Assembly: GCA_017860615.1 (NCBI GenBank) | Contig: JAGDMU010000007.1 | Location: 70,534 to 134,533, forward strand | Direction: 5' to 3' | DNA from: Pseudomonadota bacterium | GTDB taxonomy: Bacteria; Campylobacterota; Campylobacteria; Campylobacterales; Sulfurospirillaceae | DNA length: 64,000 bases | Shown: positions 4,370 to 21,045 of the stretch, one piece after another | Layout: every line of letters starts with the position of its first letter | Position numbering within the stretch: the stretch's first letter is position 1 | Position numbers and translations under genes: made by a program | Notes under the pieces: model-generated | Databases searched by the model: none | What the model was told of the DNA's origin: nothing | The model's input: only the letters and a program-made list of their open reading frames with translations

Positions 4370-5524
4370 TTACTTCTCATCCATATACTTCCCTAACACC
4401 CTATCCGCAGTAGCCAAATTGGTCTTAGCGTATCGCTTTGTTATCGCAACACTACTATGCCCGAATACCTTACTGAGTGCCTCAAGCGTTTCGCCCTGGT
4501 TTACCATTGTATTGCCTAATAAATGCCTGGTGTCATGGATGCGCATTTTCTTGTCAATACCGGCTAGTTGTAGCACTTTTTTCCAATGGCCTCGAAACGT
4601 ATCATCGGTTACATGTGGTGTTGTTTCACCTTCAAAAATAAATCCTTGTTTTCTAACACCATAATCAACTAAAAATGCTTCTAAAGGCTCAATCAAAGGG
4701 TACTCTTGTCTTTTTCTATTTTTGGAATACTGAACGATAATATAATACGTCTTTTGATCAAAATCGATATTTTCCCATCGAAGCGTTAACGCCTCATTCA
4801 ACCTACGACCAAAATATAAAAAGAGCATAATACCTTTGTACTTATCGATCTCATAGTTTTGTATAGCGTTGTAGAGATCCTTGCGCTTCTCATCGGTTAA
4901 ATTAAAATCCATTGTATTATCAAATGCCGGTAATGAAATTTTGGTAGCCGGATTAGTTGTAACAATGCCTAAATCAATCGCATAATTATAAACCGGTCTC
5001 AAAAGCTGCTGTATTGTTTGCGCCGTTCTTGGCTGTTTACCTTGCCTAAGGATTGTATTGATAATTGCCTGGATATCCGGTGCATAGACTTTATTAATCG
5101 CCAACTCTCCAATGGTAAATCGAATCCATTTATCATAGGTTTTTAACATTGAATAGACGTTTTTTTCTGATAGTGAGTCCCTTTTAAGCTCTATATATTC
5201 AGCCCAAAGTTCATTCAAGGACTTAAAATTTTTCTTCTTAATTTGGCCGTTTTCCTCAAGCTCTTCTTTGAGTTCCAGGCGTGTTTTAATCGCTTTTTTT
5301 ACGGCGTTTAGCCCTGATATATCGTGAAATCTTAATGTCTTTTTTATTGTCCTGGATCTATGCCAAAATTTTACAACGATAGCGAGTGGCTGATTATCAA
5401 GCTTTTTCAATTCAGCCTTACCGATCGTATCCGTATCGAAGATATTATCCTTATCCGAAAGATATAAACCGCTTGTGTCGAATCCTGGTATAATGATTTT
5501 TTTAATAACGTCGTTAAGTGGCAT
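4370..5524 (-). CDS. int: Tyrosine recombinase / integrase of the island
   Basis: 384 residues. An N-terminal DUF4102-like arm-binding region (residues 1-90) and a SAM-like core-binding helical domain (about 100-190) precede the catalytic domain. The full active site can be read: Arg241 (FGRRLNEAL), Lys268, His330 and Arg333 (IHDTRH), His356 (FGHSS) and nucleophile Tyr365 (KRYAKT). It therefore looks active. It sits 139 bases from a 3' tRNA-Leu remnant, the usual position for the integrase of an element that targets a tRNA gene. Confidence 0.92.
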   Translation of the reverse strand: MPLNDVIKKIIIPGFDTSGLYLSDKDNIFDTDTIGKAELKKLDNQPLAIVVKFWHRSRTIKKTLRFHDISGLNAVKKAIKTRLELKEELEENGQIKKKNFKSLNELWAEYIELKRDSLSEKNVYSMLKTYDKWIRFTIGELAINKVYAPDIQAIINTILRQGKQPRTAQTIQQLLRPVYNYAIDLGIVTTNPATKISLPAFDNTMDFNLTDEKRKDLYNAIQNYEIDKYKGIMLFLYFGRRLNEALTLRWENIDFDQKTYYIIVQYSKNRKRQEYPLIEPLEAFLVDYGVRKQGFIFEGETTPHVTDDTFRGHWKKVLQLAGIDKKMRIHDTRHLLGNTMVNQGETLEALSKVFGHSSVAITKRYAKTNLATADRVLGKYMDEK

Positions 5525-7423: not shown

Positions 7424-8665
7424 TTAGAACTTATAAGTGGCTTTAAACCAAAAATCATGTCCATCAGCATCTTTACCCCAGTCCTGATACGAAATATCGG
7501 TGCTTAAGCCTTTTAGCGCCCCAGTAAATGTATAAGAGGTGTAAATATCGGTATAGGCATATTCTTTGTCATTGGCATTATCTTCAACACCTGTGTAGCG
7601 CGCACCCACTTTAAAATTAATGTTTCTAAAGAGATAGTTTGCATCAACGGAGTACGCATCGGTATCTTTGGTATAAGTTCCTGGTTTGTTTTGAAGACCT
7701 TTAGCAAAAACGGTTTGAGTGCCTCCACCAAGACCACCGCCCATAGAATTACCTTTGATATCACCATCATCGGTAATGACGGTATAAGCAACGTATGTTT
7801 TAAAGTCTCCATAGCCTAAACTAGCCTTTGCACCATACATCGTGCCGTCTTCTTCATTGAGCTTTTCAGTCGCTTTATACTCATAGTTAGCCGCTAACCC
7901 ATAGGTGAATTCACCTACTTTGGCTTCATAGGCTGCTTCTAAATAATAAAAATCACCAACTCCCGTCGCTGTATTATTGCCATTAATACCCAACCACTGC
8001 GCTGTCAATGTTGTATTTGTGAGAGATTTATTGATAGCAAGCAGCATATACGCGTGTGCACCAAGGGCAGAATCTAGATTTTGGAAATCCGCAATATCCC
8101 CTGCAAAATCTGTCCTGTCTTGATATTTTGTAATTACACCTGCTGCCAGTGTCGTTTGAGGAAGATCTTTATTGGTCAGCATTGCACCCTCAAAGGATTG
8201 CATGATAATACGTGATCCACTCCCTGCCACCAATGGTGTATTGATGTATTGGCGACCCACTTTGGCTGTGGTGTTTGCAAAGGTATATTCTAGATATGCT
8301 TCAGAGAGTTGCGCGCCTGAGCCGTACATTTCGTTTTTAAAGTCATCTTTAGCAGTACCAGCAGTACCAATAGCACCATCGGCAAACGGTGAATGACTGG
8401 ACTGCATTGTCGCACCAAATTTAAAACCATAGAATGCATCTGTATTATAATGAAGCATTATTCCCGTTGTAAAAATGTCCGAGTTAATTTTTTGCGTTGC
8501 AGCGGTACTTAAGTTAGGAGAACCTTCTCTGTCAAAATAGTATGCTTTCAACTCTCCACTGACTTGACCATTTTTAAAGGCATCGGCAAGTGTGTCTGCT
8601 GCAAATGAGCTTGTTGTTAAACCTGCCATCACGAATGTTGCTAAACTTAACTGAGATAATTTCAT
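7424..8665 (-). CDS. Outer-membrane porin (Opr/OprD-like family of Campylobacterota)
   Basis: 413 residues with a signal peptide ending near residue 22 (SSFA, then ADTL). The remainder alternates short aromatic-bounded beta strands typical of a porin barrel and ends in phenylalanine (WFKATYKF), the C-terminal signal for outer-membrane insertion. A conserved VGRQYINTPLV element after the first strands is typical of the family in this phylum. It lies 74 bases after the molybdoenzyme operon in the same direction, behind a terminator-like hairpin. It might be partly co-expressed and admit the substrate, which is inference. Confidence 0.8.
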   Translation of the reverse strand: MKLSQLSLATFVMAGLTTSSFAADTLADAFKNGQVSGELKAYYFDREGSPNLSTAATQKINSDIFTTGIMLHYNTDAFYGFKFGATMQSSHSPFADGAIGTAGTAKDDFKNEMYGSGAQLSEAYLEYTFANTTAKVGRQYINTPLVAGSGSRIIMQSFEGAMLTNKDLPQTTLAAGVITKYQDRTDFAGDIADFQNLDSALGAHAYMLLAINKSLTNTTLTAQWLGINGNNTATGVGDFYYLEAAYEAKVGEFTYGLAANYEYKATEKLNEEDGTMYGAKASLGYGDFKTYVAYTVITDDGDIKGNSMGGGLGGGTQTVFAKGLQNKPGTYTKDTDAYSVDANYLFRNINFKVGARYTGVEDNANDKEYAYTDIYTSYTFTGALKGLSTDISYQDWGKDADGHDFWFKATYKF

Positions 8666-8738: not shown

Positions 8739-9581
8739 TTAAAAGAATTGCCAAACCGTAGTACCGAGGTTAAACATGATGACCCTATAAACAGCCGCAC
8801 CCACAAAAGCACACATAAGACCAAGTGCAAAAGGGGCGTTCGAGAGAGCAACCGCGCCATCATTTTTACTTTGTGAGTAAACCAACCCAAACGGTACAAC
8901 CAAACCGATAATGACAATACCAACCCAAAAGAGCATCGCAAATCCACCAAACAGGACAGAAGAAGCCGAACGGCTTGCATCAGAATACGGTGCAGACGAT
9001 AATGCTACGAGATACGCAATGATGGCAATCGCTTGAACCACAACCAAGGCTTGAACCAGTCGTTTCATTTTTTGAATCATCAAAGCATTAGGCTCAACCA
9101 GTAGCGCTGCATACGCTAATGCACCCATTAAAAGGGCTGATGCTAGGTAGACAAACGGCAATGTTAGGGTATCCCATGCAGGGCGTGCTCCCATCACATA
9201 CGAATCGCCTACGGCAAATGCTAAAATGGCAGCGGTGATCGCACCAACCAGCGTAATGGTTTTAAGCGTTTGCTTTGAAGCATTTCGTTGTAACGCATAA
9301 AGATAAGCTATCACACAAATACCAGTAATTCCAATCATCGAAGACTCGATAAAAATACCCGAAGTTGGGTGTCCCAATGCTCCAAAAATTCTCTCTGGGT
9401 GCCCTAAGTGAAGGACACTGGAAAAACCACCTAATGCTAAAGCAACTAACGTTGCAATGGCACCTCTTTGTTTGACAGTTTCACTGAAGCTATACCATTC
9501 ATTGATCGCTAAAGCGATGAACAGACCACATCCTAAATCCACAAATGCTGTGAAAAAGACTAATGAAAATTCACTATCCAT
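8739..9581 (-). CDS. DmsC-like membrane anchor subunit of molybdoenzyme
   Basis: 280 residues with about eight hydrophobic membrane segments and almost no soluble domain. The motif HLGHPERIFGAL after the second segment, followed by an ES/IES turn, resembles DmsC-family quinol-oxidising anchors. It would pass electrons from menaquinol to the ferredoxin subunit. The start overlaps the end of the ferredoxin gene by 8 bases, so the two are coupled. It is the last gene of operon 1, followed by a terminator hairpin. NrfD/PsrC-type anchors are the alternative family. Confidence 0.8.
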   Translation of the reverse strand: MDSEFSLVFFTAFVDLGCGLFIALAINEWYSFSETVKQRGAIATLVALALGGFSSVLHLGHPERIFGALGHPTSGIFIESSMIGITGICVIAYLYALQRNASKQTLKTITLVGAITAAILAFAVGDSYVMGARPAWDTLTLPFVYLASALLMGALAYAALLVEPNALMIQKMKRLVQALVVVQAIAIIAYLVALSSAPYSDASRSASSVLFGGFAMLFWVGIVIIGLVVPFGLVYSQSKNDGAVALSNAPFALGLMCAFVGAAVYRVIMFNLGTTVWQFF

Positions 9582-10212
9582 GACGTTTTTCCTCCTTTTT
9601 TCCAGATTGATGAGGCGTTCTCCACGTCTCTTTTGGTGGTAAATCTTGCCATTGCGCCGTTTTACGATGCAAAATGTACTTCACAGAAGGGTGATTTCCA
9701 CGATCTGGAAGAGAGTGTATATTTTCAGCACCCGCCTCTTTTAAGACTTTGGCGACCTCACTGTTTGGATCATCGATATCACCAAAGAAGCGACATTTCG
9801 AGCAACATACTTTTACACATGCTGGTTTTTCGCCCACCGCTGTTAAGTGCGCACATAAGGTACATTTTTCAACAACTTTTTGCTCCGCGTTGTATGAACG
9901 AGCACCGTACGGACATGCCATCATGCAGTATTTACAGCCAATGCACAGCTCTTTATCAACCATTACTGTTCCATCAGCCGCTTTAAAAGAGGCTCCTGTT
10001 GGGCATACATCGACACAGGTAGGGTTATAACATTGCTGACAGATTGTTGGCAGTTGATACTGCTGTATATCTGGGTATGTTCCCATTGGACCTATTGTTA
10101 GGACTTTGTTATAATAAACACCGAGGGCTACATCGTTTTCCATCTTACACGCCATTTCGCAAGAATAACAACCAATGCAACGATCTAAATCTATAACCAT
10201 TGTTTTTTTCAT
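9574..10212 (-). CDS. DmsB-like four-cluster [4Fe-4S] electron-transfer subunit
   Basis: 212 residues with four cysteine groups: CIGCYSCEMAC near residue 12, CQQCYNPTCVDVCP near 57, CIGCKYCMMACP near 91, and CTLCAHL...CVKVCC near 116. This is the standard arrangement of the B subunit of DMSO-reductase-family complexes, carrying electrons from the anchor to the catalytic subunit. It has no signal peptide of its own and would be co-exported with the Tat-dependent catalytic subunit. It lies 16 bases after the catalytic gene. Confidence 0.9.
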   Translation of the reverse strand: MKKTMVIDLDRCIGCYSCEMACKMENDVALGVYYNKVLTIGPMGTYPDIQQYQLPTICQQCYNPTCVDVCPTGASFKAADGTVMVDKELCIGCKYCMMACPYGARSYNAEQKVVEKCTLCAHLTAVGEKPACVKVCCSKCRFFGDIDDPNSEVAKVLKEAGAENIHSLPDRGNHPSVKYILHRKTAQWQDLPPKETWRTPHQSGKKEEKRHG

Positions 10213-10228
10213 TGTCTATCCCTTCTCT

Positions 10229-12922
10229 TTACAATCGCACAGCAGGTGCTGCATCGGATGGCTCTGGCATCCATCGTTTAAACTCTTCTGGTTTTTCCAA
10301 GATACCTTGCGGAGCACCATCCGCTTTTGAAATTTTTACCTGATAGCCTCGTAGCGTGTACGTTCCAAACATATCATTGTATGGGGCTGTCAGTTTTGAA
10401 AGGACATTGACATTCATCTCTTGCCATCCTTTGGTTGGGCTATCGAGTGTTTCAGGATTCCAGAAACGCTCCATATACACCGTATCAGGAGGAATACCCT
10501 CAGTAACTCTAGCTTTGGCTCGAATTTTTCCACGAAGAGACTCGACCCATACCCAATCGCCTTGTGCAACACCGTATTTTTTAGCGGCAATTGGGTTGAC
10601 CCATATTTCAGCTACTGGGTAGAGTTCTCTAATGTAAGGAACATTTCGAAGCGTTCCGTGATGGTACATTGGCAAACGACCGTTCGTCATAGTTAGAGGA
10701 TACTCTTTGCCCACTTCTGTTTTTCGGTTTTCTGTTGGTTCCATATAATAGACCAATGGATCGTAATCTTTAGAGGAAGGCGGTAAGTCATACGTTGTCC
10801 ATGGACGTCCTGTGCGACCTAGCACAATGAAAGACTCTCCATACACTTCAAGTTTTTTGGAAGGTGTTCCAAACCCTTTAGGTTTGTTTGTTCTAGAATC
10901 GATCTCTTTGTAAATATAATATTTACGCCATTGGTCATAAGGGACATTATCAAATGGCACTTTGGCTATATACTCTTTCCACGTCATACCAAAGTATTTC
11001 GTCCAGCCATCCAGTTGTTCTTCATAAGTATTGAAATAAGGAAGCTCTGGTGCTGTCGCCTTAGGATCAAATGCACGTTTACACTCTTCGTGCCCCAATT
11101 CAGCGCATTTTTTAGCCAGTCTTGCCCAGAAAAATGTTTCATTGCATGTTTCCCATAAATGTGTCACCGCTTGGCGCGCAAACATTCTGTTATGGGAACT
11201 TGTAATAAAATCAGACTCTAACCATTCATTCATTGGAAGTAGATAGTCCGCATACGCTGAAAACGAGGTCGGATAGACAAAGGCGTGGACAACTAAATCA
11301 AGTTTTTTAAGTCCTTCAATCCATTTTGAAGCATCCGCAACCATGGCAAGTTTATTGCCAGAGCGTTCAATCCATGCGTGAATACCATACGGTTTTCCCG
11401 TTGTCATTGCTTCTAAAAGTGGCGCTGGTTGTGCAACCCACCATCTCAGCATTCCTTTATGTTCAATACCCCCTAAGCGTTTACGCAACTGTGCCTCAGG
11501 AAGGAATTTTTTAAGCATGGTAGAGCGTAAATCACCGATGGCACCACCTGCATAACGCTGTAATATCGTGCCTGGTTTTTCAACATTGCCCATGATCATA
11601 TCTAGGGTTGCTGTTCCCATCGGAGCTTGTGCAGAGTTAACGTTATGATCTGTCGCAACACCTAGAGCAATAGCTGAAGGCGTATTTTTAGCGTACATCT
11701 GTATCGCTTTTTCTATTTTCACAACTTCCAAACCACACTCTTCTGCTGCTTTTTCAACACTAAACGGCGCTACGCGTTCTCGCAACAGGGTAAAGCCTGT
11801 CTTATACTCAACATCTTTAATGGTATACGTACCTTCGAGTGCTGGTTCAAGAGCATCATCCCAAGGATACGTTAACCCTGCAGGAGCATTTGTTTTTGTA
11901 TCCCAAATTACAAACGTATCGGCACGTCCTCCTTCAATCAACTCATTTTCACGTAAAATCATTTTCGTTTTTGTATTGACTAAGAATGGTAAATTGGTCC
12001 ATTTCATCACAAAATCATGGTCATACCATTTTTGATCGATGATTTTTTTAATCCATGCCATCATCAAGGCAACATCCGTTCCTGGACGAATCGGTAACCA
12101 GATATCTGCTTTCGCAGCATCAGGCGTAAAGCGAGGATCAATAACAATGGTTTGAACACCGCGTGCTCTGAGTTCAACTAAGGCACGACCCGCTTGGGAT
12201 GGTCCACTGTAGGAAGGATCGGTTCCCCATAAGACGAATGTTTTCATCTTGATTTCATTATAAAAAAACGCCTCGATACAGTTGGAATCGCCTAAACTAG
12301 GGTTACCTGAAGGACCACCACCGTACGTCATTTGATAGACCATTTGGCGAGGCATATAACATTGTGATGCACCTGGCTCAAACCAGTTTGGAGAACCAAA
12401 AACATCACAGAAACGGCAACAACTCAAAAAGTTTGGATTTCCACCACCGCCTGTACTTCCCATAACAGCTTCGGCACCGTATTTTTCACGGATTTCCATG
12501 AGTTTTTGAGCAATTTCATTCAATGCTTCATCCCACGAAATACGTTTCCATTTATTTTCCCCTCGAGCGCCAACTCGCTTCATTGGGTACTTATTACGAT
12601 TAGGATGGTACAAAGCTTGAATGCCCGCTAAGCCTTTAGTACATAACGCACCCTCGCTTCGCTCAAACTCAGGATTTCCTTCGATTTTGATAACACGGCC
12701 ATCTTTGACATGTGCTAAAACACCACAATCCGCTGTACAACTGCGGCAGTTTGTTTTAACGATTTTTGTACCAGCACGCTCCTGATTGATGGGACTAGCA
12801 GCATGTGCACGCGTGACTAATCCATCGGACCACGTACCACTAAGAGCCCCAAACGCTCCAATAACAGCGGTTGTTTTCAGAAAATCTCTTCTTCCAAACG
12901 CTGATTGTTCTTGTTGTTCCAT
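10229..12922 (-). CDS. Tat-exported molybdopterin oxidoreductase, catalytic subunit
   Basis: 897 residues from the ATG at 12922, which has AAGGAG upstream. The Tat signal is FGRRDFLK near residue 10. A [4Fe-4S] motif C-x2-C-x3-C-x27-C begins at residue 59. The likely molybdenum ligand is a cysteine at residue 188 in EPGASQCYMPRQ. Bis-MGD binding elements (WGTDPSYSGPSQ, IDPRFTPDA, TNGRLPMYHH) follow in family order. A Cys ligand places it with polysulfide, thiosulfate, tetrathionate, arsenate or selenate-type reductases and not with Ser-ligated DmsA, although its partner subunits look Dms-like. The substrate cannot be named. First gene of operon 1. Confidence 0.88.
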   Translation of the reverse strand: MEQQEQSAFGRRDFLKTTAVIGAFGALSGTWSDGLVTRAHAASPINQERAGTKIVKTNCRSCTADCGVLAHVKDGRVIKIEGNPEFERSEGALCTKGLAGIQALYHPNRNKYPMKRVGARGENKWKRISWDEALNEIAQKLMEIREKYGAEAVMGSTGGGGNPNFLSCCRFCDVFGSPNWFEPGASQCYMPRQMVYQMTYGGGPSGNPSLGDSNCIEAFFYNEIKMKTFVLWGTDPSYSGPSQAGRALVELRARGVQTIVIDPRFTPDAAKADIWLPIRPGTDVALMMAWIKKIIDQKWYDHDFVMKWTNLPFLVNTKTKMILRENELIEGGRADTFVIWDTKTNAPAGLTYPWDDALEPALEGTYTIKDVEYKTGFTLLRERVAPFSVEKAAEECGLEVVKIEKAIQMYAKNTPSAIALGVATDHNVNSAQAPMGTATLDMIMGNVEKPGTILQRYAGGAIGDLRSTMLKKFLPEAQLRKRLGGIEHKGMLRWWVAQPAPLLEAMTTGKPYGIHAWIERSGNKLAMVADASKWIEGLKKLDLVVHAFVYPTSFSAYADYLLPMNEWLESDFITSSHNRMFARQAVTHLWETCNETFFWARLAKKCAELGHEECKRAFDPKATAPELPYFNTYEEQLDGWTKYFGMTWKEYIAKVPFDNVPYDQWRKYYIYKEIDSRTNKPKGFGTPSKKLEVYGESFIVLGRTGRPWTTYDLPPSSKDYDPLVYYMEPTENRKTEVGKEYPLTMTNGRLPMYHHGTLRNVPYIRELYPVAEIWVNPIAAKKYGVAQGDWVWVESLRGKIRAKARVTEGIPPDTVYMERFWNPETLDSPTKGWQEMNVNVLSKLTAPYNDMFGTYTLRGYQVKISKADGAPQGILEKPEEFKRWMPEPSDAAPAVRL

Positions 12923-13127
12923 ACAATTCTCCTTATACGGCAAAAAACAAAAAGCAAATCTCATTTAAAGTTTAGTGCTCTAAATTCTATTTGCACGATT
13001 AGATCTTATGAGGAGTCCTCATAAAACCACCAAACAATCGCTTCTCATTTATATTTTGATTCTTCTTTGGCCATTTCAGAATAAAATATAAAATTAAATT
13101 GTTTTAATAAATCGATTTATTAAGAAA
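12923..13127 (-). promoter_or_regulatory. Long untranslated leader of operon 1
   Basis: The predicted promoter at 13128-13156 implies a leader of about 200 nt before the catalytic-subunit start. The region is AT rich and contains no convincing gene. Its notable structure is a 19-bp palindrome at 13006-13024. Confidence 0.45.
13006..13024. repeat. 19-bp palindrome in leader of operon 1 (candidate operator)
   Basis: TTATGAGGA at 13006-13014 and its exact complement TCCTCATAA at 13016-13024, separated by one base. The size and symmetry suit a dimeric helix-turn-helix regulator. No equivalent is seen ahead of operon 2. Confidence 0.45.
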
Positions 13128-13159
13128 ATTATAGGATTAATGCCACTATTTGTCAATAC
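13128..13159 (-). promoter_or_regulatory. Sigma70 promoter of the molybdoenzyme operon
   Basis: On the minus strand TTGACA (13156-13151) is followed after exactly 17 bases by TATAAT (13133-13128). The 18-base block GTATTGACAAATAGTGGC is identical to that of the operon 2 promoter. Consensus -35 boxes are uncommon in this phylum, so the shared block may also be a regulator site. Confidence 0.7.
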
Positions 13160-13375: not shown

Positions 13376-13672
13376 ATGCCTAGAAAACGTTTAATCTTTT
13401 CGCCAGAATTTAAAATGCAAGTGGTTTTTGAATCGTTTCAACCTAACACCACATTGCAACAACTCTCAGACAAGCATCAAACATCGGTTAAAAACATCAT
13501 GAATTGGAAGCAGCAATTTTTTGAAAATGCCCATCTTGCTTTTGAAAATCCTGCATCAAACGAAACACTCACTTCGCTCAAACACGAAAATGCCAAACTC
13601 GAAAAACAACTCCAACAACTTCAAATTGAACATGATTTTGTAATGCGTAAGGTTAAAGAGCTCAATCTTTAA
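13376..13672 (+). CDS. IS3 OrfA-like HTH/leucine-zipper protein, no transposase partner
   Basis: 98 residues from an ATG with GGGAG 9 bases upstream. An N-terminal IS3/IS911 OrfA-type helix-turn-helix (FSPEFKMQVVFESF, LSDKHQTSVKNIMNWKQQFF) is followed by a heptad coiled coil at about 65-98. The protein is complete but no OrfB/DDE gene follows, and no terminal repeats are visible. The next gene is a convergent ferredoxin. A close relative lies at 17855. In the OrfA family this region binds DNA. Its intact frame and position beside the operon 1 promoter suggest a transcription factor derived from a transposase; a decaying insertion-sequence remnant is the alternative. Confidence 0.75.
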   Translation: MPRKRLIFSPEFKMQVVFESFQPNTTLQQLSDKHQTSVKNIMNWKQQFFENAHLAFENPASNETLTSLKHENAKLEKQLQQLQIEHDFVMRKVKELNL

Positions 13673-13690
13673 GACGTTTCCTTCTCTTGC

Positions 13691-14725
13691 TTATGTCCTA
13701 AAGATAACGACTCGCTCTTCTTCTTGTGGTGTGACCTCATCTTTTTCAAAAAGCAAGACAGGTTCATTTTTAAACATATCATTCATTGTTTTAGGCGCAA
13801 ATGTGATGGCTTTTGCAAAACAAACATCTTCGCACATATGACACGCAATGCACGCATGTGTTGTGTAATCAACGCCAAACGCCTTCTCTTCATTCATACC
13901 TAAAGCACCCGTAGGACAAACTTTCGTGCAGATAGAACACTCTTTACACAGAAGAGGATCAATAATTGGTTTGACACCCATAATAGAATCAGAAAATACG
14001 CGATCTTGCATCAAAGCTATCAAATACCTCAAACGATCCTGCTTTTTGAAAGAACGCTGTTTGTAACGATTGTCTTTAAATACAATGGGGCGTTGCACTG
14101 TTAAAATTTCACTCTCGCTCGAAGCTGGTTTTTTACCAAAAAGAGAGAAAAGCATTCTTCGTCGTAAGTGTCCATCTCGTGTGATGCCCTCTATTGTTTC
14201 ATCTTTTTTGGCTATATATGCATCAATATTAGAGAGCTCTATCTGGGCACTGGGCTGTATATGTTTTACATCGCTGATGCTCTTTTCAAACATGTTTTTA
14301 AGAGCGCTTCCATGACACTTTTCACACGAACCATGAATGAGTTTAACAGAAACAGCGCTATTTTTAAAACAAGAAAGTAACAGCGAAGAATCCATCCTTG
14401 CTAAACACGAGATCCCCCTAAAATGCGGCTCTTTACTTTGAATCCGCTCACAACAAAAAACAATCTCCTCTGCACGCTCTTTTTGTTTCTCTTCTATAAA
14501 GCAGATGATCTCTTCATCAGAAGGATTTTTGGCTTCAAAAACATCGGTAGGACACAAGGCAACACAAGCTCCACAACCCACGCATTTTAGGCTATCAAGT
14601 TGTGGGGAGGTGGTCTTAAAATCAATCGCATGGGTTGGGCAAACATCGACACATAAAGAACATTTGGATGAGCGATGAATACTTTTTAAACACTGTTCTG
14701 GATAAAATTCAATCCCTAATGCCAT
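13691..14725 (-). CDS. Polyferredoxin-like [4Fe-4S] protein of the respiratory module
   Basis: 344 residues with two ferredoxin clusters at the N-terminus (CSLCVDVCP near 22, CVGCGACVALCP near 48) and two at the C-terminus (CKECSICTKVCP, CIACHMCEDVC). A middle section has isolated cysteines (FCCER, SCLARMD, SCFKNS, SCEKCHG) that could bind another centre. It has no signal peptide, so it is presumably cytoplasmic. Last gene of operon 2, starting 6 bases after the NapH-like stop. Such proteins accompany TorD-type chaperones and may supply electrons or help cofactor insertion; the exact role is unknown. Confidence 0.75.
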   Translation of the reverse strand: MALGIEFYPEQCLKSIHRSSKCSLCVDVCPTHAIDFKTTSPQLDSLKCVGCGACVALCPTDVFEAKNPSDEEIICFIEEKQKERAEEIVFCCERIQSKEPHFRGISCLARMDSSLLLSCFKNSAVSVKLIHGSCEKCHGSALKNMFEKSISDVKHIQPSAQIELSNIDAYIAKKDETIEGITRDGHLRRRMLFSLFGKKPASSESEILTVQRPIVFKDNRYKQRSFKKQDRLRYLIALMQDRVFSDSIMGVKPIIDPLLCKECSICTKVCPTGALGMNEEKAFGVDYTTHACIACHMCEDVCFAKAITFAPKTMNDMFKNEPVLLFEKDEVTPQEEERVVIFRT

Positions 14726-14731
14726 CTCTTC

Positions 14732-15586
14732 CTACCGTTTGGATTTGAAAAATGAAAAGGATATCGCTTGCATCGGACACGCATCGGAACAGTCCTTACA
14801 TTTCGTACAACGAGAAAGGGCTTTTTGTGTTAACGGCTCATGCAAATCAATCTCTTCATGACACGCATCTTTGCAGATACTACAATCCGCACCCTTACTT
14901 GCCTTTAAACAGCTCTTGGTATCAATGGCTGGTTTAAAAAAGATATTTGCTCGACTCATCAAAGAAATCAATGCTCCCAGTGGGCAAAATTTTCGACAGG
15001 TAAAACGAAAAAAGATCAACTCCAATGCTAACACGGCAGGAAAAACCATCAGTGACCATGTTGGCTCATTAAACTGTATCAGTCTCCACACCCCCACAAT
15101 CACCGCAAAGGTCAACCCCACAGGACAAATGAGACAAAAGACAGGAAAACCAAACAAAAATGTCGAGCCTAAAGCACCACCTAACACAAAGTAACTCGTA
15201 TCGATTTTTTTAGCAGAGGCGATCAAACCTTCTTTTGCAGAAACATCTTCAGTAACTTTAGTAGGAATATTTTGAGATGTCTCTGTTTTAGGAAACCATT
15301 TTCTAAAAAGAGGTACAGGGCACATCCATGCACAAAAGATGCGACCAAAAAGAATGGAAATAACTAAAAAAACCGCCAACGAAATAAAAACAGCTGGAAT
15401 AAACGTTTTACTCGCAATGAGTGTTTCAATAGAACCTAAAGGACAAATCGCAGAGATCGTGCTGTATCCAAACGCGCTCAGTGTTCCTGTGCCTGTGTGA
15501 AATGCTAAACCCACAAGGGCTAGGAGAATAAAGAATGAGATAGAAAGCGTACGCCATGAGGAAAATTTAATTGGTTTCATGATCAA
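14732..15586 (-). CDS. NapH-like membrane ferredoxin
   Basis: 284 residues with about four to five membrane segments and two characteristic Cys-x3-CysPro motifs after helices (FCAWMCPVP near 95 and CRKFCPLGA near 200), plus C-terminal ferredoxin motifs (CSICKDAC, CTKCKDCSDACP). This is the NapH/MauN/NosR-like architecture for quinol oxidation or transmembrane electron flow. Its start overlaps the NapG-like gene by 4 bases, as in nap operons, so the two proteins probably form a NapGH-type quinol dehydrogenase feeding the molybdoenzyme or its maturation. Confidence 0.82.
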   Translation of the reverse strand: MIMKPIKFSSWRTLSISFFILLALVGLAFHTGTGTLSAFGYSTISAICPLGSIETLIASKTFIPAVFISLAVFLVISILFGRIFCAWMCPVPLFRKWFPKTETSQNIPTKVTEDVSAKEGLIASAKKIDTSYFVLGGALGSTFLFGFPVFCLICPVGLTFAVIVGVWRLIQFNEPTWSLMVFPAVLALELIFFRFTCRKFCPLGALISLMSRANIFFKPAIDTKSCLKASKGADCSICKDACHEEIDLHEPLTQKALSRCTKCKDCSDACPMQAISFSFFKSKR

Positions 15587-16197
15587 ACTTCTTTGGAAGA
15601 GATAGGTCTAATTTCAACGCCACGTACTTTACCACCGACGTAAGAACGCATCATTAAAGCGGGACAAATGTTTTCACACACACCACACCCATTGCATTTT
15701 TGCTCATCAATGATGGGACGTTTATGCTCATCTAACGTAATGGCTTTATAAGGGCATGCGCTGTAACACAACGTACACGCACCATAATTTAAAGCAATGC
15801 ACACATCGGTTAAATATGCCATCCCGATTTTATCGCGCTGCTTATCAAAAGGCTTTAACGCTCCTGTTGGGCAGACGTCAATGCATTGATTGCAAAAATC
15901 ACACGAACCTATATGAAACTTCATCATCGGTGTGCGTGCTTGAAGAAATCCTTTTTCAATGGGGACTATACCAATAGCAGAGGTGTGGCATGCACTCCTA
16001 CAACGATCACATTTGATGCATTTTGATAAAAATGTCTCTTCATCTTGTCCACCAGGAGGTCGTAAGAGTGCCTGCCTTGGAGCAGCTTTTGCCACTGCCC
16101 CAAGACCAAACATTAACGCTAAACCAACACCAGAGGCAACAAAGGTTCGCCTTGAAAGCTTATTGTTACGTTCATCGCTTGGTGATTCATTGCTCAT
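15583..16197 (-). CDS. NapG-like Tat-exported ferredoxin
   Basis: 204 residues from the ATG at 16197. A Tat signal (SRRTFVASG, then a hydrophobic stretch to AKAA) precedes four [4Fe-4S] motifs: CIKCDRCRSAC, CDFCNQCIDVCP, CTLCYSACP and CNGCGVCENICP. Length and cluster spacing match NapG/MauM ferredoxins, which pair with NapH. It starts 14 bases after the TorD gene and overlaps the NapH-like gene. A napG label is avoided because no nitrate reductase is present here. Confidence 0.85.
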   Translation of the reverse strand: MSNESPSDERNNKLSRRTFVASGVGLALMFGLGAVAKAAPRQALLRPPGGQDEETFLSKCIKCDRCRSACHTSAIGIVPIEKGFLQARTPMMKFHIGSCDFCNQCIDVCPTGALKPFDKQRDKIGMAYLTDVCIALNYGACTLCYSACPYKAITLDEHKRPIIDEQKCNGCGVCENICPALMMRSYVGGKVRGVEIRPISSKEV

Positions 16198-16211
16198 TGA
16201 GTAACCTTTAA

Positions 16212-16943
16212 TCAGTGACAGGAACAAGCAGTCTGTTGTGAATGTTCCGCGTGCGCTTCTGCTTTGCGAGCACTAATTAACACCGAAGTTTCTAGATACT
16301 GAAGCATCTCTTCTTCAAGATGAAGATACCCACGTGTCAGTTTTGCAACCGCTTTGTAAAATTCTGTTTGCGCACACTGTAAAATGTCATCGCAAAACCG
16401 TGGAATCCAATTGAGGAGATGTTTTTGCAAAAAGTGTGATTGGGTTTGCATTAACGCTTCAGCTTTTTCATACTCGCCATTTTGAAGTGCCTCTTTACAG
16501 GCTTGGCACATATAAACCATAAATTCAAACTCAAGACTTATGTGATCTTCTGGGATGTTAAGTTTTTCATCTTTATCTAATCCAAACTCACGGTACAAGG
16601 CTAAAACTTCATCACGTGCATCTTGCATAATGAGGCGCTCACGACTGGTATAAACAGACTCATAAGGATCCGCAACCTTACCTTCAAAAATACCTGCCCC
16701 TAAAAAGACACGTGCATAATCAACGGCTAAATCGCTCAGTGGATCTAAATGTGTTTGGTGAAAATAGGCTTCAAATTGTCTGTAGCCCTCAGAGAGTTCA
16801 CCCTCATCAGACTCGCTAAAACGAAGCATTGTCAGTTGGTTAAAAAGCGCTTGATCAACCTCTTCTTTATAAATGCGCCCCAATAAACGGTACATATACA
16901 TTCTGTTGTCCATCAATAAAATATTTTCACTCATCTGTCCCAT
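16212..16943 (-). CDS. TorD/DmsD-family molybdoenzyme chaperone
   Basis: 243 residues, all helical, with the TorD-family hallmark DPYESVYTS followed by RLIMQD, and a downstream PEDHISLEFEFMVYMC motif. Such chaperones bind the Tat signal of one molybdoenzyme and hold it until the cofactor is inserted; the catalytic subunit of operon 1 is the obvious client. The C-terminal tail ends in Cys-Ser-Cys-His, unusual for the family and possibly metal binding. The ATG at 16943 is preceded by AAAGGAT. Confidence 0.85.
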   Translation of the reverse strand: MGQMSENILLMDNRMYMYRLLGRIYKEEVDQALFNQLTMLRFSESDEGELSEGYRQFEAYFHQTHLDPLSDLAVDYARVFLGAGIFEGKVADPYESVYTSRERLIMQDARDEVLALYREFGLDKDEKLNIPEDHISLEFEFMVYMCQACKEALQNGEYEKAEALMQTQSHFLQKHLLNWIPRFCDDILQCAQTEFYKAVAKLTRGYLHLEEEMLQYLETSVLISARKAEAHAEHSQQTACSCH

Positions 16944-16982
16944 GTTTTATCCTTTATTACTCATTTTCAATTTTATCAAGCA

Positions 16983-17534
16983 CTATAATTTCGCATACGC
17001 TTTTTGCGTGGTTTTCCAAGCACCATTCCAAACAAGTCCGCCTGCCCTCTCCAAGGTTTCTATAAAATAGTTTGCATAGATTTTTGGATTTTCTAAAAGA
17101 GGTTGATTTTCTAAATGGGTCTCTATTTCCATACGTGATTTTGCCTCTTTACAAAAATCAAGCACCCTTAGATAGATCGTTTTATACACAGGGTCACTTA
17201 CAAAAAGAGCTTCTAATTTATCCTCACTTGCCTCTTCTTCAAAAGCACATACACCCTCTTTTGTTGTCGCCCATAAAGAGGTCTCCCCTTGCCTTACGAT
17301 CTCTTTCATGCCGCCAAAGCCTACAAGCCACGATACAAGAACCTGTGTGGTTTGCAAAGGTACTTTCATTTCAGGCAGTGCTAAAACCTCTGCTTCTAGC
17401 GCCACAAAAGTCTTAGGCTCTTTACAGTATGAAAGTATCGTATAAAGAACCGCTTGATACGCAGGCTCTGCTGCAATTCTTTGCTGAATCCCCAAAACAG
17501 TAGACGCCATCGCTTCGTCAGATAAACACTCCAT
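16983..17534 (-). CDS. Unknown two-repeat protein, first gene of operon 2
   Basis: 183 residues. The two halves resemble each other: PAYQAVLYTILSYCKEPKTFVALEA near residue 18 and PVYKTIYLRVLDFCKEAKSRMEIET near 113, each followed by a loop and a strand-like segment with a glycine-tryptophan turn (SWLVGFGG; GGLVWNGAW). The repeats look like winged-helix folds, and a cysteine is conserved in both (YCKE, FCKE). It has no signal peptide. As the first gene before the chaperone it may help assembly or sense redox state. No function is known to me. Confidence 0.65.
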   Translation of the reverse strand: MECLSDEAMASTVLGIQQRIAAEPAYQAVLYTILSYCKEPKTFVALEAEVLALPEMKVPLQTTQVLVSWLVGFGGMKEIVRQGETSLWATTKEGVCAFEEEASEDKLEALFVSDPVYKTIYLRVLDFCKEAKSRMEIETHLENQPLLENPKIYANYFIETLERAGGLVWNGAWKTTQKAYAKL

Positions 17535-17622
17535 TTCATTCCTTTTTTTTGTTGTGTGACTAAAATCAAAACGTGAACTAAAACTAAAAATAACTGTTCT
17601 ATTTTATGAATTTCATTTTAAA

Positions 17623-17654
17623 AGTATATAACTATCGCCACTATTTGTCAATAC
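17623..17654 (-). promoter_or_regulatory. Sigma70 promoter of operon 2
   Basis: On the minus strand TTGACA (17651-17646) and TATACT (17628-17623) are separated by 17 bases. The block GTATTGACAAATAGTGGC is identical to the operon 1 promoter. The predicted leader is about 80 nt. The rest of the 320-base gap (17535-17854) is AT rich and shows no gene. Confidence 0.7.
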
Positions 17655-17854
17655 ATATATTTTTATATTTTTATTCTAATAAAACTAAAAATTTACCTAA
17701 ATTATGGGCTTTTTTGTAAAATGTATGTAATTGATTTAATTTGATATATTTTTTTCAAAAAATATAATACAATTTCATCATTATGCTTCAAATCCTACAA
17801 ACAGTCATGTGATGTAAGAAGATAGCGACAAATAGACACCAGAGGAAAACCGTG

Positions 17855-18523
17855 ATGCGTAGACAGCGAACTTCATTTTCACCCGAATTTAAAATGCAAG
17901 TTGTTCTCGAATCGTTCAATACAAACATACCAACAGCTAAGCTCGCTGAAAAATGCGGCACTTCTGTTAAAAATATTATGAATTGGAAACAGCAATTTTT
18001 CAAAAACGCTCATCTCTCCTTTGATGCAACGATCTCAATCAACAGGCTGGAAACGCTTAAAAAAGAGAACGAAAAGCTTGAAAAACGTTTGATGGAATTG
18101 CAACGTGAGAAAGATGAAGCCGTCAAAAAATTGCAAAATTTAGATATTTCTACTAAAAAACAGATCGTTGATACGGCTTCATCTTCGTTATCCATTGCGC
18201 AACAATGTAAGATTATTGGATTAAACCGTCCTTCGCTTTACTACGCGCCAAGACCCTCTAAAAAGAATGATGAAGCGATTATGGAGCGTATCGGTGAAAT
18301 TTTTCAAACCAATCAAGCGTCGTATGGATACCGCACAATGCACCAACTGTTAATCAAAGAAGGGTATAAAATCGGGGTCAATAAAGTGCATAAATTGATC
18401 AAACTCCTCGAAGAGCAAAAAGGAATCAAGCCCTCTTCCAAAAAAGTCGATGCCTCGAAGAATGAATCACTTCAGCCTTCACACATTTTGCATGATTTAG
18501 CCTTAGCCAAACCCTTTACCTAA
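17855..18523 (+). CDS. IS3-type OrfA-OrfB' fusion lacking the DDE domain
   Basis: 222 residues from the ATG at 17855 (AGAGG 9 bases upstream). An OrfA helix-turn-helix closely related to the protein at 13376 (FSPEFKMQVVLESF, GTSVKNIMNWKQQFF) is followed by a leucine zipper (about 60-95), then the HTH_21 region normally at the start of IS3 OrfB (YGYRTMHQLLIKEGYKIGVNKV). The frame stops at AKPFT, where OrfB would continue into its integrase core. OrfA and OrfB parts are joined in one frame with no slippage site. An intact DNA-binding unit without catalysis suggests domestication as a regulator; a truncated insertion sequence remains possible. Confidence 0.75.
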   Translation: MRRQRTSFSPEFKMQVVLESFNTNIPTAKLAEKCGTSVKNIMNWKQQFFKNAHLSFDATISINRLETLKKENEKLEKRLMELQREKDEAVKKLQNLDISTKKQIVDTASSSLSIAQQCKIIGLNRPSLYYAPRPSKKNDEAIMERIGEIFQTNQASYGYRTMHQLLIKEGYKIGVNKVHKLIKLLEEQKGIKPSSKKVDASKNESLQPSHILHDLALAKPFT

Positions 18524-18904
18524 CTACGATATGAGCGGTACATAACTGCTTTTTATCTGAGCATTTCTATTGGTAGGTGTTATACTGCGTTGAGATAATT
18601 CCTGTGGAACATAGTAGTGCTTGGCATTGGCATTTTTTCTCTCAATCGCATCAATTGATTTTTTAAGTGCGTCACGTTTTTTCTCAAGAAGTTTAATCTC
18701 TTTTTCATCGTTTTGAGAAGATTTTCGTTTTGAAAAGATCGTCGAAGCGCTCTGTATCATCTGCTGTTTCCACGCGTTAATGTTTTCTATACTCACTTTA
18801 TATTTTAAAGAGAGCTCTTGCAGAGAAATTCCCGATAGCAGTAATTCAAAAACCACTTTCGTTTTAAATTCAGCACTGTCAGTCAATAAAGCTCTTGTTT
18901 TCAT
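18524..18904 (-). CDS. Third IS3 OrfA-like HTH protein
   Basis: 126 residues if it starts at the ATG at 18904 (MKTRALLTD), which has GAGGCAAC upstream; an earlier ATG at 18931 is also open. It has an OrfA-type helix-turn-helix (SAEFKTKVVFELLLSG, LSLKYKVSIENINAWKQQM) and a basic coiled coil at about 65-95, then a tail with no match. It is divergent from the two other OrfA-like proteins in the window. It converges with the OrfA-OrfB' gene with no gap and faces away from the two-component system. No transposase core is nearby. Confidence 0.65.
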   Translation of the reverse strand: MKTRALLTDSAEFKTKVVFELLLSGISLQELSLKYKVSIENINAWKQQMIQSASTIFSKRKSSQNDEKEIKLLEKKRDALKKSIDAIERKNANAKHYYVPQELSQRSITPTNRNAQIKSSYVPLIS

Positions 18905-19061
18905 CGTTGCCTCTTTAAATAGAATCTTCATGTTTCAAATCATAGCACCAAGTTCACAGCAGTGTGGTAAACATTTGGTAACAAAACTTAAATGTTCCAT
19001 ATAAATTTTTTTTAAATTTTAAATTTTAATGAAAGCATGTTTCTCTGCTATACTTTCATGC

Positions 19062-19730
19062 ATGATTAAAATTTTATTGATTGAAGATGATGTTGAATTG
19101 GCAAAATTGTTGCAAAGAGTGCTTCTACTAGAAGGAATCGATACCACTCTGGCATTTCATCCCGCAGAAGGGTTAAAGATCCTTGAGCATGAGACATTTG
19201 ATGCTCTTGTTTTAGATCTTTCATTGCCTCAAATCGATGGCTTAGAAGTCTGTCGTACGGTAAGAGCACAACTCCCCGATCTTCCCATTATTATCTCCTC
19301 CGCAAGATCCGATACGGTTGATAAAATCATTGGTTTTGAACTCGGAGCCGATGATTATCTTCCCAAGCCTTATGAACCTATAGAGCTCGCTTTTAGATTA
19401 CGTGCCATTTTGCGAAGAGGCATACACGTCAAAACCTCTTCAGAAGTTTTTAGCATCGATGAAAAAACACATGTGATTAAACGCAACAACAGAGAGATAC
19501 AGCTTACCAAAGCGGAGTATGACATTATGGCTTTTATGCTTGAAAAAGAGGGGTTTGTCATCTCAAGAGAAGAGCTTTTGCTCAATATCAATTCGATTAA
19601 ATTTCAAAGCGGACTTAAAAGTATTGATGTCATTATCGGACGTATTCGTCAAAAAATAGGGGATGATCCCAAAAATCCTCATTTTATTCTCTCCGTACGG
19701 GGTGTGGGGTATAAATTTATCAATGCGTAA
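19062..19730 (+). CDS. OmpR-family response regulator
   Basis: 222 residues. The receiver domain (1-120) has the acidic pair EDD near residue 8, the phosphoacceptor Asp in LVLDLSLPQ near 52, Ser in ISSAR and Lys in LPKPYEP near 103. A winged-helix output domain follows (about 130-222) with ILSVRGVGYKF at the end. I chose the ATG at 19062 because MIKILLIEDD is the conserved N-terminus. It overlaps the kinase gene by 8 bases. The position directly after the molybdoenzyme module makes the two promoters sharing an 18-bp block its likely targets (inference). Confidence 0.9.
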   Translation: MIKILLIEDDVELAKLLQRVLLLEGIDTTLAFHPAEGLKILEHETFDALVLDLSLPQIDGLEVCRTVRAQLPDLPIIISSARSDTVDKIIGFELGADDYLPKPYEPIELAFRLRAILRRGIHVKTSSEVFSIDEKTHVIKRNNREIQLTKAEYDIMAFMLEKEGFVISREELLLNINSIKFQSGLKSIDVIIGRIRQKIGDDPKNPHFILSVRGVGYKFINA

Positions 19731-21045
19731 CCTTTCCATTATCAAACTCATTTCACTCTTTTTTATCATTGCATTACTCGTCATCAATGTCTCATTTATC
19801 ATTGAATATAAACGCCAAATTAAAGACTTGGAGTATTTTACATTTCAGCGTTTTATGATGGGCATGCGTATTATGGGGCAGAATCCTCCTGATCAAGAGG
19901 TGCTGCTGAACAAATTAGGCATTAAAGTAAGCGATGTTTCAAAAGATGAAATACGCCAAAATGGTAAAAAAATTCTTGAAGATTCTTTTTGCGATATGAT
20001 TGAATACAACCAAACACTCTACTTTGTTCAAAGAAATCCACCTCCTCCGAAAAAATCACTGGCTACGGTTATGTTGTTAGCAGGCATTTCACCCCAATCC
20101 GATGGGGATGTCATCGCTATCGAAGATAGACCCGCTATCGAAAACTTGGAAACATTTTCACTGAGTCGTTTTTGGATATTGTGGGCAACCATCGATATAG
20201 TGACGATGATTTGTTTTTTTGTCATTTTACGCAAGTTACTACGACTTCACAGTTTAAAAAGCGCTATTCGCGCTTCTGGAGACACCCCTCATTTTCAAGA
20301 AATCCCCATCGATAGTCATGACGAACTAGGGGAAATTGCAGAAGAATTTAATCTTGCAATGCACAAACTCCATCGCATGAAAGAGGCTAGAACGCTCTTT
20401 TTACGCAATATTCTCCATGAACTTCGCACACCTGTGATGAAAGGTAAAATCCTCGCTAGCATTATCAAAGATGATGAATTCAAAGACCAACTCAGGCAAA
20501 TCTTCATTCGCCAAGAGGTGCTTTTAGGCGAAATGGTTAAAGTTGAAAAGCTGGCTTCCAATGAATGGGTTTTGGCAACCAAAGAGTACCGTTTGGTGGA
20601 TATACTCGATCACGCGATCGACCTTCTTTTGATTCACGACCCCAAACGCCTTTGCATCAATGCCGAAGATACCACACCTATTCTTCTGGCTGATTTTGAG
20701 CTTCTATCCACAGCCATTAAAAACTTACTCGATAACGCACTCAAATATTCTAAAAATGACATTGTTGTTGATGTACGACCTGAGCACATCAGCATATGCA
20801 GTGATGGTGCGAAAATCCCTGAGCAACGACTGGATTTTACACGTGCATTTAACCGTGACATCGAGAGTACGAACATTGGGCTTGGACTTGGGCTTTATAT
20901 CGCCAATGCCATTATTGCAAAACACGGGTTTGATCTTAGCTATCACCATGAAGAGGGAAAAAACTATTTTCAAATCTTTTTTCAACCTATCGCGCACGAA
21001 CCTTATGAAGAAGTCGCTGAGGCGTCTGAGCATCTTACACACTAA
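19723..21045 (+). CDS. Sensor histidine kinase (ArsS-like)
   Basis: 440 residues from the ATG at 19723. Membrane segments at about 7-28 and near 155-175 flank a short periplasmic sensor of about 125 residues that contains the run NPPPPKKS. A HAMP-like segment precedes the phosphoacceptor motif LHELRTPVMKGK, characteristic of the ArsS group in Campylobacterota. The N box (KNLLDNALKYS) and a GLGLGLYIAN G box follow. It pairs with the overlapping regulator gene. The signal may be the respiratory substrate or pH, but the sequence does not say which. Confidence 0.88.
   Translation: MRNLSIIKLISLFFIIALLVINVSFIIEYKRQIKDLEYFTFQRFMMGMRIMGQNPPDQEVLLNKLGIKVSDVSKDEIRQNGKKILEDSFCDMIEYNQTLYFVQRNPPPPKKSLATVMLLAGISPQSDGDVIAIEDRPAIENLETFSLSRFWILWATIDIVTMICFFVILRKLLRLHSLKSAIRASGDTPHFQEIPIDSHDELGEIAEEFNLAMHKLHRMKEARTLFLRNILHELRTPVMKGKILASIIKDDEFKDQLRQIFIRQEVLLGEMVKVEKLASNEWVLATKEYRLVDILDHAIDLLLIHDPKRLCINAEDTTPILLADFELLSTAIKNLLDNALKYSKNDIVVDVRPEHISICSDGAKIPEQRLDFTRAFNRDIESTNIGLGLGLYIANAIIAKHGFDLSYHHEEGKNYFQIFFQPIAHEPYEEVAEASEHLTH

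Follow-up and report, generated by a model that had tools for sequence, protein, structure and literature searches.

Apparent capture of an IS3-family transposase and its terminal repeat as a regulator–operator pair in Sulfurospirillum

Plants and animals provide well-established examples of transcription factors derived from transposases; in bacteria, the known cases stem mostly from other mobile-element proteins, namely antitoxins, phage repressors and TnpB, the protein from which TldR is derived. Here, we describe a 64,000-nucleotide stretch of a Sulfurospirillum genome (hereafter the window), in which three genes, termed A1, A2 and A3, encode relatives of the N-terminal part of IS3-family insertion sequence (IS) transposases and lie beside a molybdoenzyme module. 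Sequence comparisons make it likely that A1 and A2 regulate two promoters of this module, P1 and P2, which are built on transposon ends, so that regulator and operator would have been captured as a pair.

The closest described systems are those of IS2 and IS911. IS2 OrfA is a repressor that binds near the element's own promoter, and the abutted ends of IS2 form a promoter in which a 17-nucleotide (nt) spacer is mandatory (PMC3299598). The IS911 derivative OrfAB[1-149], which has no catalytic domain, binds the transposon ends as a dimer and better than full-length OrfAB does; it also brings two ends together as a pair (PMC2909936). These OrfA and OrfAB proteins have the same order of helix-turn-helix (HTH), coiled coil and HTH_21 as the proteins described here, and their target is the terminal repeat of the IS. 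In contrast, the A-proteins lack the DDE core, a second flanking end and mobility, and their proposed targets are the promoters of host respiratory operons.

Other recruited regulators are more distant. The TldR family consists of RNA-guided transcription factors (PMC13418256) and, as proposed here for A1 and A2, arose in bacteria by exaptation of a protein encoded by a transposon; however, the ancestor of TldR was a nuclease and TldR works with a guide RNA, whereas here the DNA-binding half of a DDE transposase is paired with a transposon end. FHY3/FAR1 and ZBED are transcription factors that reuse the DNA-binding part of a DNA-transposon transposase (PMC13306707, PMC3606216), but these are eukaryotic and come from other superfamilies of transposases. 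Ner of phage Mu and SfsB exemplify the recruitment of a mobile-element DNA-binding protein to bacterial host operons, and a review of such recruitment in prokaryotes deals with Xre-type and antitoxin regulators (PMC8987985); unlike A1 and A2, Ner is an Xre-type phage regulator and not a transposase fragment. The transposase-derived factors that we met in the literature were otherwise eukaryotic or TldR. In the open-licence literature, we found neither a description of an IS3-type transposase kept with its own end as a bacterial regulator–operator pair nor anything matching this Sulfurospirillum locus or IS3-derived regulators.

Three transposase-derived proteins without a catalytic core

The three proteins, given below with their lengths in amino acids (aa), were compared between the window's genome (G000; 2.79 Mb, 31 contigs, 99.97% complete) and three relatives, G006, G008 and G020, with the corresponding locus termed L033 in G006 and L034 in G008.

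13376–13672, plus strand: A1, OrfA-like, 98 aa (HTH and coiled coil), with a C-terminus that coincides with the OrfA end.
17855–18523, plus strand: A2, truncated OrfAB, 222 aa (HTH, coiled coil and HTH_21), which stops just before the DDE core.
18524–18931, minus strand: A3, divergent OrfA-like, 135 aa, or 126 aa from an internal ATG at 18904.

A sequence-only reading of the window had claimed three OrfA-like open reading frames (ORFs) with HTH and coiled coil, two of them close paralogs, and these are present as claimed, with a weaker match, below the cut-offs, for A3. The Pfam model HTH_Tnp_1 (cut-off 24.1 bits) matched A1 at 36.6 and A2 at 40.8 bits, and the two proteins are 56% identical over A1. 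A3 reached 14.1 bits with the same model, and matched an NCBIfam IS3 transposase model with E=3e-6, yet under the curated cut-off of that model. All three are derived from the N-terminus of IS3-family transposases.

The claim that A2 keeps HTH_21 and ends where the DDE core would start was likewise borne out, by an HTH_21 match of 38.9 bits (cut-off 28.1) and by alignment with full-length relatives. In all four species, the C-terminus of A2 lies 1–3 residues short of the motif W-x-x-D-I-T-Y-I, which bears the first catalytic Asp, and A2 has no DDE catalytic core of OrfB. A1 ends at the identical point, the OrfA end, in the four species; the common truncation points of both proteins therefore indicate that the truncation is old and shared. 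No DDE part was found 3' of the A-genes in any of the four species, which rules out a programmed frameshift into OrfB. A low-confidence structural model of A2 (two-sequence alignment; mean predicted local distance difference test score, 68; predicted template modelling score, 0.30) shows a helical HTH and one long helix (residues 38–94), followed by another helical domain, the tail of which is poorly predicted.

All three A-proteins occur in only 4 of the 24 genus genomes (G000, G006, G008 and G020), and exactly the same four encode the large subunit of the molybdoenzyme; among 397 genomes drawn from the phylum, this subunit was found only in the three of those four that were included. The ORFs are intact in 12 of 12 cases (three genes in four species), with zero frameshifts or internal stops. 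Pairwise ratios of nonsynonymous to synonymous substitution rates (dN/dS) between G006, G008 and G020 were 0.08–0.15 for A1, 0.08–0.12 for A2 and 0.20–0.45 for A3, compared to 0.04–0.05 for mopA. Signs of IS mobility were not encountered, the A-proteins being at one position in the four species and at a single locus in the window's genome. The genes thus show the features of domesticated transposases: intact reading frames and purifying selection at one locus in several species.

Other Campylobacterota do contain decayed fragments of this IS group, and A1–A3 might be similar functionless pieces that hitch-hike with the module. This is scarcely credible given the 12 intact ORFs, the common end points and the dN/dS values far below 1 for A1 and A2; intact frames and dN/dS rule out neutral decay. 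Other core-less matches from Campylobacterota were considered as further domesticated cases and rejected, as those examined were contig-end cuts or decayed IS pieces and did not lie beside respiratory operons. A 192-aa frame in G273 (L082) was seen among the core-less matches, and a scan of genome contigs recovered just one of the known loci and two weak matches.

The closest full-length relative found was an IS3 element in genome G238 (L077–L079), which is present in seven identical copies, encodes a 396-aa transposase and is probably active. The A2 profile matched this element with E=5e-73, in line with descent from a mobile relative. No full-length IS3 copy was found in the window's genome, where a search with A2 matched only A1, A2 and A3. 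Core-less transposases may retain end binding and multimerisation (PMC2909936), and related full-length elements are found within the genus (two copies, in G008); A1–A3 could on these grounds be dominant-negative inhibitors that shield the host from related IS3 elements, acting by end binding or by poisoning of transposase multimers. Such a role is improbable for proteins that are strictly linked to one metabolic module, are absent from the 20 other genus genomes and have no detectable full-length relative in their own genome.

The transposon-end sequence at promoters P1 and P2

A1 and A2 each lie divergently from a leftward promoter of the module, and the ancestral end sequence is present at both promoters:

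13141–13159, plus strand: putative P1 operator, IS3-type terminal repeat TGCCACTATTTGTCAATAC, read from tip to inside, holding the leftward -35 box TTGACA at 13151–13156.
13128–13156, minus strand: P1 core promoter of the mopABC–porin operon, TTGACA - 17 nt - TATAAT, from sequence and a four-species alignment.
17636–17654, plus strand: putative P2 operator, IS3-type terminal repeat CGCCACTATTTGTCAATAC, holding the leftward -35 box at 17646–17651.
17623–17651, minus strand: P2 core promoter of the accessory operon, TTGACA - 17 nt - TATACT, from sequence and a four-species alignment.

The sequence-only reading, which had stated that no terminal inverted repeats were visible, was wrong on this point, as a terminal repeat lies inside both operon promoters. 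The spacer between the -35 and -10 boxes measures 17 nt in the window and 18 nt in the other three species. The sequence GCCACTATTTGTCAATAC is common to both leftward promoters and occurs nowhere else in the window's genome with zero mismatches; exact matches to its 18-base-pair (bp) core in this genome are the P1 operator and the site at 17637 only. The other species carry the version GCCACC(T/A)TTTGTCAAGAC, with one change in P1 of G008, and within the genus the zero-mismatch core motif was found only at these promoters.

A position weight matrix was built from eight right IS ends, seven from other genera and one from G008, read from the loci around the transposase genes of full-length relatives in other genomes. 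P1 ranked first and P2 second in the 64 kb of the window, and the two best sites on both strands were P1 and P2 in the window, L033, L034 and L035. Because -35 hexamers are common, 486 TGTCAA/TATCAA sites in 210 kb were also ranked on their flanking bases only. In this ranking, the eight P sites took ranks 1, 2, 4, 5, 6, 7, 8 and 10, with rank 3 held by a second copy of one P site; among the 42 TGTCAA sites of the window, P1 was again first and P2 second. A later check, independent of the matrix, compared the ends of the G238 element: its right end (IRR), TGCCACCATTTGTCAAGAC, shows 19-bp identity with P1 of G006, and its left end begins with TGCCACTA, the same as P1 of the window. Multi-copy full-length relatives are still extant for comparison, and the G238 element is suited to a comparison of binding.

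TTGACA is a generic hexamer, outward -35 boxes are frequent in IS3 ends, and both promoters have a consensus -35; a host promoter might accordingly have come to resemble IS ends by chance or convergence. The flank-only ranking, the top-two ranks in four loci and the 19-bp identity to an end of the G238 element make this very improbable. A flanking inverted-repeat pair was not encountered: A1 and A2 are each preceded by a single end-like site, both sites having the same orientation, and no partner end was present among the top matrix matches of the scanned loci.

Two further elements lie downstream of P1: an inverted repeat, TTATGAGGAGTCCTCATAA, at 13003–13030 and a palindrome, AATAAATCGATTTATT, near 13107–13122. 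Both were considered as operators and rejected; in the window they accompany P1 and are missing from P2, and so are not a common site. An ATCGAT-centred element (motif GATGAATCGATAAATC) follows both promoters in the other species and is missing at P2 of the window.

Co-evolution of A1 and A2 and proposed regulation

In a phylogenetic tree, all A1 and A2 sequences fall into one clade separate from the sampled elements (98.9/100 support). Inside this clade, A1 of the window pairs with A2 of the window, and likewise for those of the other three species. A tree constrained to orthology of A1 and of A2 was rejected for the HTH (approximately unbiased (AU) test, p=0.0025) but not for the coiled coil (p=0.12). 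HTH identity was 66% between A1 and A2 of the window vs. 48% between A1 orthologs, while the corresponding values for the coil were 42% and 40%. When the P1–A1 and P2–A2 cassettes of the other three species were compared, the promoter/leader and the HTH codons were most alike, and the intervening DNA less so. This fits two proteins obliged to read one operator; gene conversion confined to those parts could be an alternative source of the likeness.

Outward -35 boxes in IS ends, which are common in the ends of IS3 elements, are known to drive neighbouring genes, and an OmpR/ArsS-type pair is conserved next to A3 in the four genomes. The transposon end might consequently have been captured merely as a promoter, with its outward -35 joined to a host -10, the two-component system being the sole regulator and A1–A3 being kept for another purpose. 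We consider this unlikely, since A1 and A2 are divergent from exactly the two end-bearing promoters, their HTHs evolve in concert whereas the coiled coils do not detectably do so, and the end sequence is kept beyond the -35 hexamer at both promoters.

We favour regulation of P1 and P2 by A1 and A2, for which binding, dimerisation, repression and release by a signal are what we infer. An ancestor of these Sulfurospirillum species would have captured an IS3-family element whose relatives have OrfA and OrfB fused in one frame. The DNA-binding half of this element would have been retained as A1, which corresponds to OrfA, and A2, which adds the beginning of OrfB without the catalytic core, and its terminal repeat as the operator, with the -35 and spacer of P1 and P2 within the relic end and each gene divergent from its own promoter. 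Homo- or heterodimers of A1 and A2, formed through the coiled coil, would bind the ends in the manner of the ancestral transposase and thereby govern the access of RNA polymerase, most likely as repressors covering the -35. A2 is a natural counterpart of the core-less IS911 construct and P1 and P2 are laid out like an end-derived promoter; repression by occupation of the -35 is therefore proposed. The molybdoenzyme, the maturation and electron-transfer genes and the porin would then be expressed together, upon release by a signal that may act via the adjacent ArsS-type two-component system. More tentatively, and by analogy with the transposition synapse, A2 (and A1) might pair the relic end of P1 with that of P2 in one loop, much as the truncated IS911 transposase does with IS ends, switching the promoters together; the distance between the two is 4.5 kb in the window and about 9 kb in the relatives.

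Several observations weigh against this proposal. When the -35 hexamer is masked with no other condition, the matrix misses some sites, and the generic TTGACA makes up part of the site. The weakest of the matches is the window's P2, the sites lie 200–350 bp from the start of A1 or A2, farther than in an IS, and a site for A3 was not found. Finally, IS911 OrfA has no repressor role (PMC3299598), so A1 and A2 might act with either sign.

Altogether, the suggested domestication of a transposase DNA-binding unit gained support from these comparisons: there are no full-length IS3 copies in the same genome, the ORFs are present in every operon-bearing genus genome, while the complete set of three is missing from the other genomes of the genus, the orthologs show no frameshift and strong purifying selection, and the IS-end sequence at both promoters would link protein and target. 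The idea of a set of three transcription factors held better for A1 and A2 than for A3, for which no site was found. Both halves of DDE transposon recognition, protein and end, have apparently been kept as a regulator–operator pair for an anaerobic respiratory module, which offers a testable case of a bacterial operon acquiring its own regulator from a jumping gene. Further cases might be found by scanning for core-less transposases divergent from promoters with a matching end.

The molybdoenzyme module and its surroundings

The remaining features of the module are as follows:

7424–8665, minus strand: porin adjoining mopC (NCBIfam Opr porin, under the curated cut-off).
8739–12964, minus strand: mopC, mopB and mopA, a membrane-anchored molybdoenzyme (Pfam, NCBIfam and PDB sequence matches).
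13691–17534, minus strand: accessory operon under P2, encoding a conserved unknown protein, a TorD-like chaperone, NapG- and NapH-like Fe-S proteins and a ferredoxin-type protein (Pfam, ORFs).
19062–21045, plus strand: OmpR-type response regulator and ArsS-family sensor kinase, both conserved beside A3.

By sequence matches, the molybdoenzyme comprises a PhsA/acetylene-hydratase-like catalytic subunit, a 4Fe-4S subunit and a DmsC/NrfD anchor; among solved structures, the catalytic subunit (10229–12964) is closest to acetylene hydratase and to a thiosulfate/polysulfide-type reductase (2vpw). The kinase matched NCBIfam NF038389 at 330 bits (cut-off 250), and paralogs about 50–58% identical to it are encoded elsewhere in the window's genome and in most other genus genomes.

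The gene order porin, A1, operon(s), A2, A3, response regulator and kinase is conserved in G006, G008 and G020. In these three genomes, a single operon under P2 contains the unknown gene, mopABC, torD, the napG/H-like and the ferredoxin genes, and the porin gene is directly under P1, where the window has mopABC. The layout thus differs between the window and the other three species, genes having switched sides between two like promoters. In G006 (L033:9739–11507), a gap in the assembly (N runs) is surrounded by repeated copies of the 3' part of mopB and the start of mopC, probably an assembly artefact. A phage-type integrase gene lies at 4370–5524, by the porin end of the module, and a different integrase is found at the corresponding flank in G008 (L034:2593–3729), which suggests an integration hot spot.

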